Origin: Planctomycetaceae bacterium | GTDB taxonomy: Bacteria; Planctomycetota; Planctomycetia; Planctomycetales; Planctomycetaceae | Reading direction: 5' to 3' | Length of the DNA stretch: 55,262 nucleotides | Assembly (NCBI GenBank): GCA_021732845.1 | Contig: JAKFUF010000014.1 | Coordinates: 1 to 55,262, forward strand | In this document: positions 6,303-21,627 of the stretch, in pieces | Position numbering within the stretch: position 1 is the stretch's first letter | Layout: each line of letters starts with the position of its first letter | The notes under the pieces: model-generated | Told to the model about the DNA's origin: nothing | The model's database searches: none | Seen by the model: only the letters and a program-made list of their open reading frames with translations | Translations under genes and position numbers: made by a program

Positions 6303-6631
6303 CACCGTTCCCCAAGCCGCCCAGATCCACCGTCGCATGTCCGCGCAGGCACCAGGGATCGCGAATCAACTGTTTACTGACGTTTCCGACAAAAGTCCCG
6401 TCTCTGAATTCGATGGAATTTCAAATTTCAGATTTCAAATTTCACAGTAAAATGCTTTGTCGCAGCATCCACACCGCAGGGCAACAGTTACGTTCGCACC
6501 CTTGAAGCTCAGTCGACAGTTCGGTGTGGCTGCACAGACTGTGAAATTTGAGATTTTAAATTGGCTTTTGTCGGACACGTCTTTACTAACCTTAAGAGTA
6601 TTACAGAGGCCGTCGATTGCCCAAAATCGCC
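6303..6631. repeat. Gene-free gap with AT-rich inverted repeat
   Basis: Two arms, 6424-6447 and 6539-6562, form an imperfect inverted repeat (21 of 24 positions) around about 90 bases. The arms are built from alternating AAATTT and GAAATC units. The 24 bases at 6422-6445 recur exactly, as reverse complement, at 21291-21314 inside another intergenic repeat. No open frame with a ribosome binding site is seen, so this is best read as a member of the dispersed repeat family in this genome. Confidence 0.6.
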
Positions 6632-8277: not shown

Positions 8278-8337
8278 CCAATGACCCAATGACCCAATGA
8301 CCAAATCCCAATGACCAAATGGCAGTCCGACTGCCAT
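8278..8337. repeat. Octamer tandem repeat followed by a perfect hairpin
   Basis: CCAATGAC is repeated three times without gaps (8278-8301) and a fourth time at 8308-8315, separated and followed by CAAATC/CAAATG. It is followed directly by a perfect 8 bp hairpin, ATGGCAGT-CCG-ACTGCCAT (8319-8337). The element lies between the methyltransferase stop and hisI. No T-run follows the hairpin. Confidence 0.6.
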
Positions 8338-19033: not shown

Positions 19034-19526
19034 GACAGGAATTCCAGGTTGGTGCGGCGGCGATGCAGAGAAACCTTCCTTGAAGGTGACTCAATGATGC
19101 GCCCCGCGCGGCAGACACACAAGACTGCGGCTGTGTCGTTCATCAGGACCACGACGATTGGCGCAGCAGTTTTAGGCGAAACAAATCTCAAGTTTCACTC
19201 GGTGCTTGATCACTGGGCGGGCGCCACATCCATCAAAGGCTGTCGGCAACACTCTCGTGCTGTTCGTGGTTCAAATCCCGTGATCTGAATCCTCCGCCCT
19301 CATCAAACTCCTTATGGAAACAGTTCTGCCACACAATGTTTTTCGATGAGTTGGGTATCGCCGTCGGTTACGGGCACAAACAGATCCTTTCCTCATCCTC
19401 TGTCATCCTTTTTCATCCTGTCCAATATCTAGACCATCTCCATCGACACGACGGGGCCGCCCCCCAATTCCGTGACGCTCAGGAAATTTGAAATTCCACT
19501 TGCCCAGGAACGCACGCTGCCGCAGC
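19034..19526. repeat. Gene-free gap with dispersed repeat copy A
   Basis: About 490 bases without a gene. The part 19374-19497 is copy A of a dispersed repeat: as reverse complement it matches 21291-21423, with about 65 of the first 70 positions identical by eye. It includes a pyrimidine-rich stretch of degenerate CATCCTTT units (19383-19431) and ends in an AAATTTGAAATT block. A separate module at 19263-19295 (TTCGTGGTTCAAATCC, then TGAT-TGAAT and TCCG) recurs at 21594-21627. Confidence 0.75.
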
Positions 19527-20282
19527 TCAGCCCGCGCGGTGCAACTGGTCGATCACGCCCTCAAGGAATGTCGCCAGTTTGTCGGCGGCACCCATGGCGT
19601 CGGTCCGCAGCTTCCACATGTCTGTGATGCTGCCGGGACGGTTCCACAGCGCGCTGACCGCGGCGCCGAGACGGACGGCTCCCGTCGACCCGACGACGGT
19701 CAGGATTTCCGGCGGCAGGTCGGCGGTCATGTCATCGCTGATGACGCGGATCGCCAGAAAGCGGGTCTTAAATTGCTGGCATTTGCGAGCCACGGCGATC
19801 GACTCCATGTCCACCGCCAGCGCCTGGTACTTCTCGCCCAACGCCTGCTTCTCAGCCACCGTGCGGACCATGGTGTCGGACGTGAACAGCCGTCCGACAT
19901 GCAGGCCCCGCGCCGGGTCGGCCGGCATCTTCAGATCGATCGTCAGTGGCACACCCGCGGCATCCACAATGCTGTCGGCCACGACGATATCGTTGCGCTT
20001 CAGTTCGGGACGCAGCGCTCCCGAATAGCCAGCCGACAGGATCCACTCCGGCGAATGCGCGTCGATCAGCGCCTGCGTGGCTTTGGCGGCCCGGGCGGGT
20101 CCCATCCCAGACTGCACGAAAGCGACGCGGGTCTTGTCGAACTTTCCGCCGCGGACGACCAGGTCGCCGCCGGTATACTTGCTCACGCGGTCGCAACGGC
20201 TCAATAGCGGCGAGATCTCCATCTCGGTCGCATGCACAATCCCCACTTCCGCGTGGGTGAGATCATCCTTCGAAACAGGCAT
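19527..20282 (-). CDS. Purine nucleosidase/phosphorylase family (MTA/SAH nucleosidase-like)
   Basis: A 251-residue member of the PNP_UDP superfamily. Typical elements are the N-terminal VGIVHATEMEISPLL, the ribose and phosphate site segment VQSGMGPARAAKATQ, the ILSAGYSGAL turn, and AVDMESIAVAR near residue 160, where the Glu of DMES contacts the ribose. It probably cleaves 5'-methylthioadenosine or S-adenosylhomocysteine, or a related nucleoside. The hopanoid-associated phosphorylase group has similar sequence, so the exact substrate is unclear. It precedes the dehydrogenase gene's end by 39 bases on the same strand, so co-transcription is plausible. Confidence 0.8.
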   Translation of the reverse strand: MPVSKDDLTHAEVGIVHATEMEISPLLSRCDRVSKYTGGDLVVRGGKFDKTRVAFVQSGMGPARAAKATQALIDAHSPEWILSAGYSGALRPELKRNDIVVADSIVDAAGVPLTIDLKMPADPARGLHVGRLFTSDTMVRTVAEKQALGEKYQALAVDMESIAVARKCQQFKTRFLAIRVISDDMTADLPPEILTVVGSTGAVRLGAAVSALWNRPGSITDMWKLRTDAMGAADKLATFLEGVIDQLHRAG

Positions 20283-20321
20283 GGGCAGTCACGACCGGTC
20301 CAGAAATCTTCAGAATGCGCG

Positions 20322-21113
20322 TCAGAAATCGCGCGTATAACCGGCGGTCCAGCCACCATCGACCGTGAGGATATGGCCGTTCATGTAGCTGTTTTCGGGG
20401 TCGGCCAAGAACAGGGCCGCCACGGCAATCTCCTCCACCGTGCCCGGCCGGCCCAGCGGCACATGGTCCAGCATCCGCTGCACCTTGTCGCTGAACTTGC
20501 CATCGGCCCCGTAAAACAGTTGCCGCGTTCCCTCCGTCAGCGTCGAGCCGGGGGCGATGCCGTTCACCAGAATGCCCATCGGCCCCAGTTCCAGGGCCAT
20601 CCCCTTGGTGAGGTTCACCACGCCCGCCTTGGCCGCGATGAAGGCACACTGCAACCGCAGGGGAACCAGCCCCGCGATGGAGGCGATGTTGATGATCCGC
20701 CCGGAGCCCTGCTTCCGCATGACTTTCGCCGCGGCCTGGCTGCATTGAAAGACGCCATCCAGGTCGACCGACAGAATTTTGTCCCATTCGGAACGCGGAA
20801 ATTCATCGATCGTCACGCGATGCTGCATCGTGTTGATGCCGGCATTGTTGACCAGCACGTCCAACCGCCCATACTCGGCCACCACCCGGCTGATCACGTC
20901 GTCGATCTGCTCGGGCAGCGTCACATTCAGCGCCATCGCCCTGGCGGGAATCTCTCCGCCAATCTCGCGCGCCGACTGCTCCGACGCTCCCAGATCGACA
21001 TCGGTGACGATCACCTGCGACCCGTTGGCCGCATAGCGTTTGGCAATCGCCTGCCCAATCCCCCGCGCCGAACCGGTGATGAGACTGACTGTTCCACGCA
21101 GGTCCGATTTCAT
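20322..21113 (-). CDS. Short-chain dehydrogenase/reductase with Tyr-to-Phe at the active site
   Basis: A 263-residue SDR of the classical type. The cofactor motif TGSARGIG (13-20), the NNAG motif (89-92) and the catalytic Ser145 are present, and the C-terminal VDGGWTAGY segment is normal. At the YxxxK position the protein reads FIAAK, with Phe158 in place of the catalytic Tyr (codon TTC, one base from TAC) and Lys162 retained. Without the Tyr hydroxyl normal oxidoreductase chemistry is unlikely, unless a neighbouring residue substitutes. ATG 21113 starts the conserved first strand and lacks a strong Shine-Dalgarno. The upstream gap contains dispersed repeats. Confidence 0.85.
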   Translation of the reverse strand: MKSDLRGTVSLITGSARGIGQAIAKRYAANGSQVIVTDVDLGASEQSAREIGGEIPARAMALNVTLPEQIDDVISRVVAEYGRLDVLVNNAGINTMQHRVTIDEFPRSEWDKILSVDLDGVFQCSQAAAKVMRKQGSGRIINIASIAGLVPLRLQCAFIAAKAGVVNLTKGMALELGPMGILVNGIAPGSTLTEGTRQLFYGADGKFSDKVQRMLDHVPLGRPGTVEEIAVAALFLADPENSYMNGHILTVDGGWTAGYTRDF

Positions 21114-21180
21114 TTTCGATTTTCGATTGGTGATTTTCGAGTGTTGGGAATCAGCGTCGCCTTGTGGGCGGCAAAGCCTT

Positions 21181-21627
21181 AACCACGAAAGGCACGAAGG
21201 ACACGAAATTGTGTGCGAGAATCATCCAGATGGCGGTGCCGTAATGTTTCACATTCGCTTCTATTTTGTCGTTGCCAGAGGCACTTTACCGTGAAATTTG
21301 AAATCTGAAATTTGCTGACCGTCACGGGTTTTGGGGGCGGACCCGTCGCGTAGATGGAGGTGGCCTAGATATTGGACGGGATGAAAAAGGATGGAAGAGG
21401 ATGAGGAAAGGATCTGTTTGTGCCAGCTTTCAATGAGAACATCCTTTTTTATCCTCTGTCATCCTTTTACATCCTGTCTCAAAAACCTCTTTTCAAACAA
21501 TCAGCCAGCCCCCCCAAAATCCGTGACGGTCAGAAATTTGAAATTCATTCCACGGTTCGGCACACAGCCACACTTTCGTGTTCTTCGTGCCTTTCGTGGT
21601 TCAAATCCCATGATTTGAATTCTCCGG
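21181..21627. repeat. Composite inverted repeat element, copies B and C
   Basis: Outer arms at 21181-21208 and 21574-21601 are inverted copies of each other with one mismatch in 28 bases. Inside lie copy B (21291-21423, inverted relative to copy A at 19374) and copy C (about 21436-21553, direct relative to A), each with the CATCCTTT-type tract and the block CCGTGACGGTCAG next to AAATTT. The whole forms a roughly 420-base palindromic structure between the dehydrogenase and the coiled-coil membrane gene. No open reading frame is supported within it. Confidence 0.75.

Follow-up and report, generated by a model that had tools for sequence, protein, structure and literature searches.

A planctomycete family of miniature inverted-repeat elements with a hairpin interior, probably mobilised by a larger insertion sequence with the same ends

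This study provided evidence that a miniature inverted-repeat transposable element (MITE) of 219 bp occupies positions 21315-21533, on the plus strand, of a 55,262-nucleotide stretch of DNA from Planctomycetaceae bacterium. This stretch, the window, is contig C47 of a genome assembly (G000) of 9,251,679 bases in 262 contigs. The features expected of a MITE were found together, namely a length below 500 bp without a transposase gene, terminal inverted repeats (TIRs), direct target-site duplications, dispersed copies, and ends in common with a larger element. Because of the TIRs, the duplications, the dispersed gene-free copies and the partner with the same ends, we consider it very probable that the element represents a planctomycete MITE family with a hairpin interior that is mobilised in trans by a larger insertion sequence sharing its TIR. 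MITEs as a kind are already known, and this family is a new member. At least 81 hairpin places of the mobile family lie in one planctomycete genome of 9.25 Mb, and the insertion-sequence family to which the analysis points goes unrecognised by Pfam.

The element is a single imperfect palindrome that starts with CTGACC at 21315 and closes with GGTCAG at 21533, and the family profile (nhmmer) aligns to it over positions 1-218. The TIR is about 23 bp long and reads CTGACCGTCACGG[A/G]TTTTGGGGG; the left TIR, CTGACCGTCACGGGTTTTGGGGGC, at 21315-21338 (plus strand), has one mismatch to a 20-nt form of the TIR, and the right TIR, at 21511-21533, matches that form exactly on the minus strand. The hairpin core, delimited by folding and by a covariance model, lies between them at 21372-21482 (plus strand), and in its roughly 110 nt, AGGAT blocks spaced about every 10 nt face their reverse complement across a loop of about 25 nt. 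No reading frame of 80 amino acids or more was present within 21315-21533. The window element is 96% identical over 251 nt to a copy on contig C112 of the same genome, and the 11 own-genome copies with both ends intact are 184-219 bp long.

An earlier note on this DNA had described three copies of a repeat (A, B and C) and had taken 21181-21601 as a composite element bounded by inverted arms. Its copies A and B are indeed inverted and alike: the agreement of 65 of 70 positions that it gave is exact and extends to 110 of 126 positions (87%), with a local alignment score of 169, whereas 1000 first-order resamplings of B never exceeded 30. The CATCCTTTT-type units and the CCGTGACGGTCAG block that it saw are also present. 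The division into three separate copies had to be abandoned, as B and C are the left and right halves of the one palindrome at 21315-21533. Copy A, at 19353-19482 on the minus strand, consists of the left TIR, the left arm and part of the loop only; the family profile covers it over positions 1-131 and no further, which makes it half an element, truncated near 19353.

The earlier note had proposed a non-autonomous mobile element or structured repeat family, which would fail if the rest of the genome held no other copies. Copies were found in abundance, and the proposal agrees with the copy number, the target-site duplications and the insertion sequences with matching ends. In the own genome, a search with copy A alone gave at least 52 matches after scoring 40 of 165 candidates, and one with the larger composite gave at least 82 after scoring 40 of 402. 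The covariance model of the hairpin (R1) gave at least 131 matches, corresponding to at least 81 distinct places, a lower bound for which 150 of 1726 candidates were scored and both strands of the palindromes were counted. When a match to the 20-nt TIR within three mismatches was taken as presence, 12 of these places had flanking TIRs at both ends, 16 had a single one and 53 had none. At the same threshold the TIR occurs at 70 sites in the genome, and the reversed control at none. The hairpin places thus mostly lack one or both TIRs, many of them through decay.

Target-site duplications, which the earlier note had suggested looking for, were evaluated in 15 own-genome candidates, 11 of which have both outermost bases intact (L011, L032, L019 and L077, with an incomplete end, were left out). 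The 8-base flanks are identical in 6 of these 11 copies, compared with a mean of 2.08 when partners are shuffled (p 0.003), and their summed identity is 72 against 65.2 in shuffles (p 0.004). The flanks are AT-rich, mostly CAAATTTC, GAAATTTG or CAAATTTT, and often lie inside AAATTTC-type heptamer arrays; AAATTT heptamer arrays may be a preferred target. In the window, AAATTTG stands on both sides of the element (21308-21314 and 21534-21540, plus strand) as a probable duplication, matching at 7 of 7 bases in a shifted register chosen by eye and at 4 of 8 in the fixed 8-bp register. For eight elements from other genomes, the flank identities sum to 43, compared with 28.5 after shuffling (p 0.0004). 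One of the larger insertion sequences described below, L150, is flanked by CAAATTTC on both sides.

The candidate partner was obtained by scanning genome contigs for the pattern CTGACCGTMACGSWTTTTGGGG, which returned 71 stretches, 69 in records with planctomycete titles and two in records titled Candidatus Nealsonbacteria bin.20; as a guess, the latter records may be mis-binned. In Singulisphaera sp. GP187, the TIR pattern stands at both ends of two elements, 4514-5864 of L150 (1351 bp) and 3806-5148 of L194 (1343 bp), each of which holds one long frame, of 427 or 439 amino acids. A third element, L161, spans 1357 bp, reaches the end of the fetched stretch and encodes a protein beginning MAEGSASGLC. 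The earlier note had suggested looking for a transposase with matching ends: full insertion sequences with the same TIR occur in Singulisphaera and like ends occur at contig breaks of the own genome, and the body is absent from the own bin. Concerning these breaks, five own contigs (C54, C96, C117, C196 and C257) begin with the same 127 bases, which comprise a coding end, the TIR and an AT-rich flank; the 39 amino acids encoded there agree at 75% with the end of the L150 protein (four of these contigs are among the matches listed). Contigs C107, C19 and C189 break in a left-end type, where a frame begins MADGSASKSP, like the MAEGSASGLC of L161.

The ends of the MITE can be compared with those of the insertion sequence directly. 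At their right ends, three MITE copies agree with the right end of the insertion sequence at 81-83% over 40-48 nt, and the MITE has therefore probably retained this end; two other matches, 27-29 nt long and including one left end, barely exceed the TIR. Six paired sites of 211-241 bp with the same TIR were found in three other planctomycete metagenome-assembled genomes (L140, L143 and L156; L147 and L190; L148), and their interiors, compared by eye, differ from that of the own MITE, so that the TIR seems to drive several short elements. In the mechanism that we propose from these sequences, the frame of 427-439 amino acids would be the transposase of the insertion sequence and would move the MITE in trans through the ends they share, the right end of the MITE being probably derived from that of the insertion sequence.

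Two of the three partner proteins had no match in Pfam at an E-value of 1, and the third had only a chance match (E 0.19, below its cut-off). Against NCBIfam IS256 they scored 18.4, 22.7 and 16.8 bits, far under the cut-off of 150, and the L161 protein scored 21.3 bits against IS1249, with a cut-off of 300. Solved structures gave one chance match (E 0.37), and PHROGs gave none. Relatives are present in 21 of 397 genomes of the class, the own genome included (E 1e-10). Among 72,556 plasmid records, five match the partner protein, all of them cyanobacterial; on the Acaryochloris and Leptolyngbya plasmids (L321 and L322, both regions opened) the relatives are annotated as hypothetical protein, and the family may thus be unrecognised by annotation. 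The weak NCBIfam matches are the likeness to IS256, and 8-bp target duplications fit IS256. In three aligned proteins, a C-x2-H motif, read by eye, lies downstream of a conserved aspartate, comparable to the C/D(2)H signature described for IS256/p-MULT (PMC3942029), whereas the distance from aspartate to cysteine, 21 residues by eye, differs from the 11-19 given in that account. The partner insertion sequence is possibly Mutator-like.

Two further structures touch on the search for the partner. An IS1182-like transposase of 469 amino acids (DDE_Tnp_1), at 496-1905 of L106 on own contig C132, abuts a truncated 79-nt end of the partner element. As the partner itself it was rejected: contig C121 carries a 95%-identical copy without the 79-nt TIR-bearing end, and C132 therefore looks like a junction with a truncated end. 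In addition, a third end type with the same TIR, CTGACCGTCACGGATTTTGGGG followed by CCAGTTCGGAG, occurs on own contigs C62, C119 and C6 (L091, L094 and L093), and on C6 it leads, by eye, into a promoter-like stretch and a frame beginning MNCKPMDAAAG. This type is possibly another kind of element that shares the same ends.

Several observations weigh against a MITE mobilised in trans by this partner. The body of the insertion sequence is missing from the own bin, and no intact transposase was seen in the own genome; the absence may be explained by the collapse of a repeated element in assembly. The predicted structure of the partner protein, with a mean pLDDT of 42, is too poor for an RNase H fold with DDE residues to be recognised. 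A 266-base query matched none of 58 related genomes, only the own genome, and gave no empty site for comparison; no genome of the same genus was among the related genomes listed for the searches. Concerning the duplications, 5 of the 11 own copies have imperfect flanks (L014, L016 and L020 with 6-7 of 8 bases, the window copy and L024 with 4 and 1 of 8, respectively), and only one of the eight elements from other genomes has a perfect duplication. Moreover, the flanks of L020 and L148 agree better in the inverse orientation (8 of 8 bases, against 6), and those of L024 agree in neither (2 and 1).

A structured RNA or a repetitive extragenic palindromic (REP)-like element kept by selection was considered in place of a transposon; we regard this as improbable. 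The fold is very stable: the RNA of the window element reaches -110 kcal/mol (z -10.1) and that of the other strand -97.7 kcal/mol (z -7.9). In a gap-free simulation of a randomly mutated consensus, the mean fold was surpassed by 40 of 42 cores, and 24 of the 42 surpassed it at the 5% level. A stop codon is also found within 50 nt in 14 of 20 further own copies (taken by score) and 11 of 24 incomplete copies, 25 of 44 altogether. For a uniform intergenic point in the window the chance of being so near a stop is 0.13, a value that depends on rough gene calls, some of them apparently wrong within 43-55 kb; 25 of 44 would then arise with a probability of 8e-12, or of 2e-4 if the chance were 0.3. 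The nearest stop codon to the window copy is 113 nt away. In other genomes a stop lies within 50 nt in 10 of 15 regions of G083 and G089 and in 1 of 5 of G047, with short gaps on both sides there. Under our preferred reading, too, such a location would suit a hairpin at mRNA 3' ends, tolerated or kept. However, any palindromic MITE is expected to fold stably, and the advantage over the mutated consensus arises because changes avoid the AGGAT blocks. Among 32 distinct own copies, paired cells make up 88.4%, compared with 88.2% after shuffling, with covariation scores of 0.102 and 0.100, respectively; covariation was therefore discarded as proof of a selected RNA in the own genome. Two-sided cells number 9 against 5.0 in shuffles (29 of 500 reach 9), a count that rises to 15 in slid controls. 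Applied to the full alignment with its gaps, RNAalifold returned only 5 pairs, and the window had no Rfam match at the gathering score. These data indicate that the fold is conserved in the own genome through conservation of the AGGAT blocks and not clearly through compensation, while the TIRs, the duplications and the partner insertion sequence point to transposition.

A different reading, unlikely in our judgement and yet deserving more weight than a selected RNA, holds that the core is an element of its own, dispersing independently of the TIR, and that the MITE is a chimera which took up one such element. The 53 of 81 places without a TIR on either side speak for it, some copies align over the core only, and like hairpins stand without the TIR in other planctomycete genomes, where none of 40 regions contained it (best match 13 of 20, with the maximum for shuffled TIRs averaging 13.9). 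These hairpins are nevertheless only weakly similar to the own one and could reflect convergence on AGGAT repeats. In the own genome, several copies without a TIR (L309, L319 and L306) still align past the core into the MITE arms, and are thus decayed MITEs. The best TIR matches beside 34 own cores, mostly TIR-less at the three-mismatch threshold, average 10.97 against 10.30 for 300 shuffled TIRs (sd 0.17, maximum 10.82), the average being raised partly by L310, L316 and L303. Nearness to stop codons gave no clear difference between the 25 of 44 incomplete copies and 3 of 11 complete copies (Fisher p 0.10; L011 counted as complete and the window copy left out), distances being taken from the core or profile edge in the former group and from the TIR in the latter. 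Local replication slippage with fold-back copying, in place of transposition, could in principle yield the short-period blocks and inverted arms, as could template switching, for which the making and repair of hairpins is described in PMC8794818; we give it hardly any credence, as the copies lie on many contigs, with defined ends, 8-bp duplications and ends in common with full insertion sequences.

While mobilisation of the MITE in trans remains our preferred explanation for the own genome, the more interesting question may be why similar AGGAT hairpins scatter through several planctomycete genomes. With up to 38 candidates scored per genome and both strands counted, the hairpin model matched the own genome and nine of 98 related ones. 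Among the nine others, G047 has at least 35 matches, G083 at least 29, G089 at least 28, G067 at least 17 and G086 at least 8, and there are at least 3 in G058, 2 in G012, and 1 each in G034 and G098. The 40 regions examined comprise 13 from G083, 10 from G047, 9 from G089, 4 from G067, 2 from G086, and 1 each from G012 and G098. In G083, G047, G089 and G086, the arms are 27-61 bp with 0-1 mismatch in 26 of 34 regions; seven others have 2-4 mismatches (L264, L266, L274, L289, L293, L295 and L298) and L286, by the ungapped measure, has an arm of 16 bp only. The arms are 26-37 bp with 1-4 mismatches in the four regions of G067, 31 bp with 2 in L279 (G012), and 33 bp with 1 in L280 (G098). Hairpins of G089 (L270, L271, L272, L291, L292, L294 and L295), with arms of 33-61 bp and 0-3 mismatches, are built of GGATGAAGAGGATG or ACGGATGGACACGGATG units and are a variant of the same hairpin design.

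Covariation in other genomes was counted for G083 only, where 13 copies were compared. Two-sided cells number 43, with a shuffle mean of 14.5 (sd 3.2), and the covariation score of 0.208 compares with 0.113 (sd 0.011); 0 of 500 shuffles attain either value, and each of the six slid controls gives lower ones. Selection of the regions with a structure-aware model favours paired copies, whereas the alignment was not itself fitted to structure. Further pair types (36 against 33.3) are not unusual, and two-sided changes number 43 against 15 one-sided changes of the G-U type. Replication template switching is described as both making and repairing hairpins (PMC8794818), and we infer that the G083 pattern is better explained by such switching, or by hairpins that began as perfect palindromes, than by gradual compensation in an RNA. 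We raise as a tentative and somewhat doubtful suggestion that the AGGAT hairpin is part of a broader planctomycete class of dispersed DNA elements. Such elements would consist of 3-4 units in inverted array, each unit spanning 9-10 nt or roughly a helical turn, and would often occupy short gaps next to gene ends; their near-perfect arms, 27-61 bp long, would be kept complementary by copying, for example template switching, or be perfect at birth. In the own genome, insertion-sequence ends would have captured and multiplied one of them. The related hairpins provide a natural series with jointly changing arms, in which one may ask whether long hairpins stay perfect through selection on RNA or through template switching on DNA.

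Several findings in the literature can be set beside this family, in each case by description. In a review of bacterial MITEs (PMC10969869), 10 of 78 QMITE2 copies of Coxiella burnetii are given as full-length, QMITE2 is placed mainly in 3' untranslated regions, and Chunjie copies of Geobacter as 178-235 bp. The own family is like these types in its length below 500 bp, its TIRs, its AT-rich target with direct repeats, its stem-loop interior and its many truncated, REP-like copies; it is unlike them in its TIR and partner, which differ by inspection, and in its AGGAT blocks about one helical turn apart. The BrickBuilt MITE of Porphyromonas gingivalis, as described in PMC4596501, likewise carries a short tandem repeat inside a MITE, whereas the repeats here face each other and form a hairpin. 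With REP elements (PMC3733652) the family shares intergenic palindromes in many copies, but REPs are described there as 20-40 bp long and tagged GTAG or CGTC, unlike a 219-bp element with long TIRs and other ends. A literature search with the letters of the hairpin and the TIR found no description, a weak result since sequences are rarely printed in text.

The inverted arms that the earlier note placed around its composite are present, at 21181-21213 and 21569-21601 (plus strand); they are 33 nt long and 94% complementary. As a mobile unit, 21181-21601 was rejected, because its arms match another repeat family and the part shared by the aligned copies lies inside them. With 40 of 95 candidates scored, this second hairpin family, built of CACGAA units about 9 nt apart, gave at least 56 own-genome matches, many of them as inverted pairs. 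In 16 pairs picked among the matches listed, the arms are 23-87 nt apart, compared with 355 nt in the window. A 219-bp MITE with its duplication, if inserted into the loop of such a hairpin, explains most of this excess, leaving about 128 nt, which still exceeds 87. Judging from this arrangement, the MITE likely split the CACGAA hairpin by nested insertion. A partial copy of the CACGAA family with a tail lies at 19255-19296 (plus strand), 88% identical to 21585-21626, and the latter segment (plus strand) is the second copy of this 42-nt direct repeat and overlaps the right CACGAA arm.

A second short element also occurs in the own genome, at about 850-1066 of L015 (contig C45), with ends GGACCGCGGCAA...TTGCCGCGATCC and CAAG on both sides; it is inserted in the hairpin of one MITE-family copy, and pieces like it are also present in L099. 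Finally, the window contains short arrays at 6417-6444 and 8278-8321, of AATTTCA (period 7) and of CCAATGAC or a 14-base unit (periods 8 and 14), and the AATTTCA array is the kind of site into which the MITE tends to insert.

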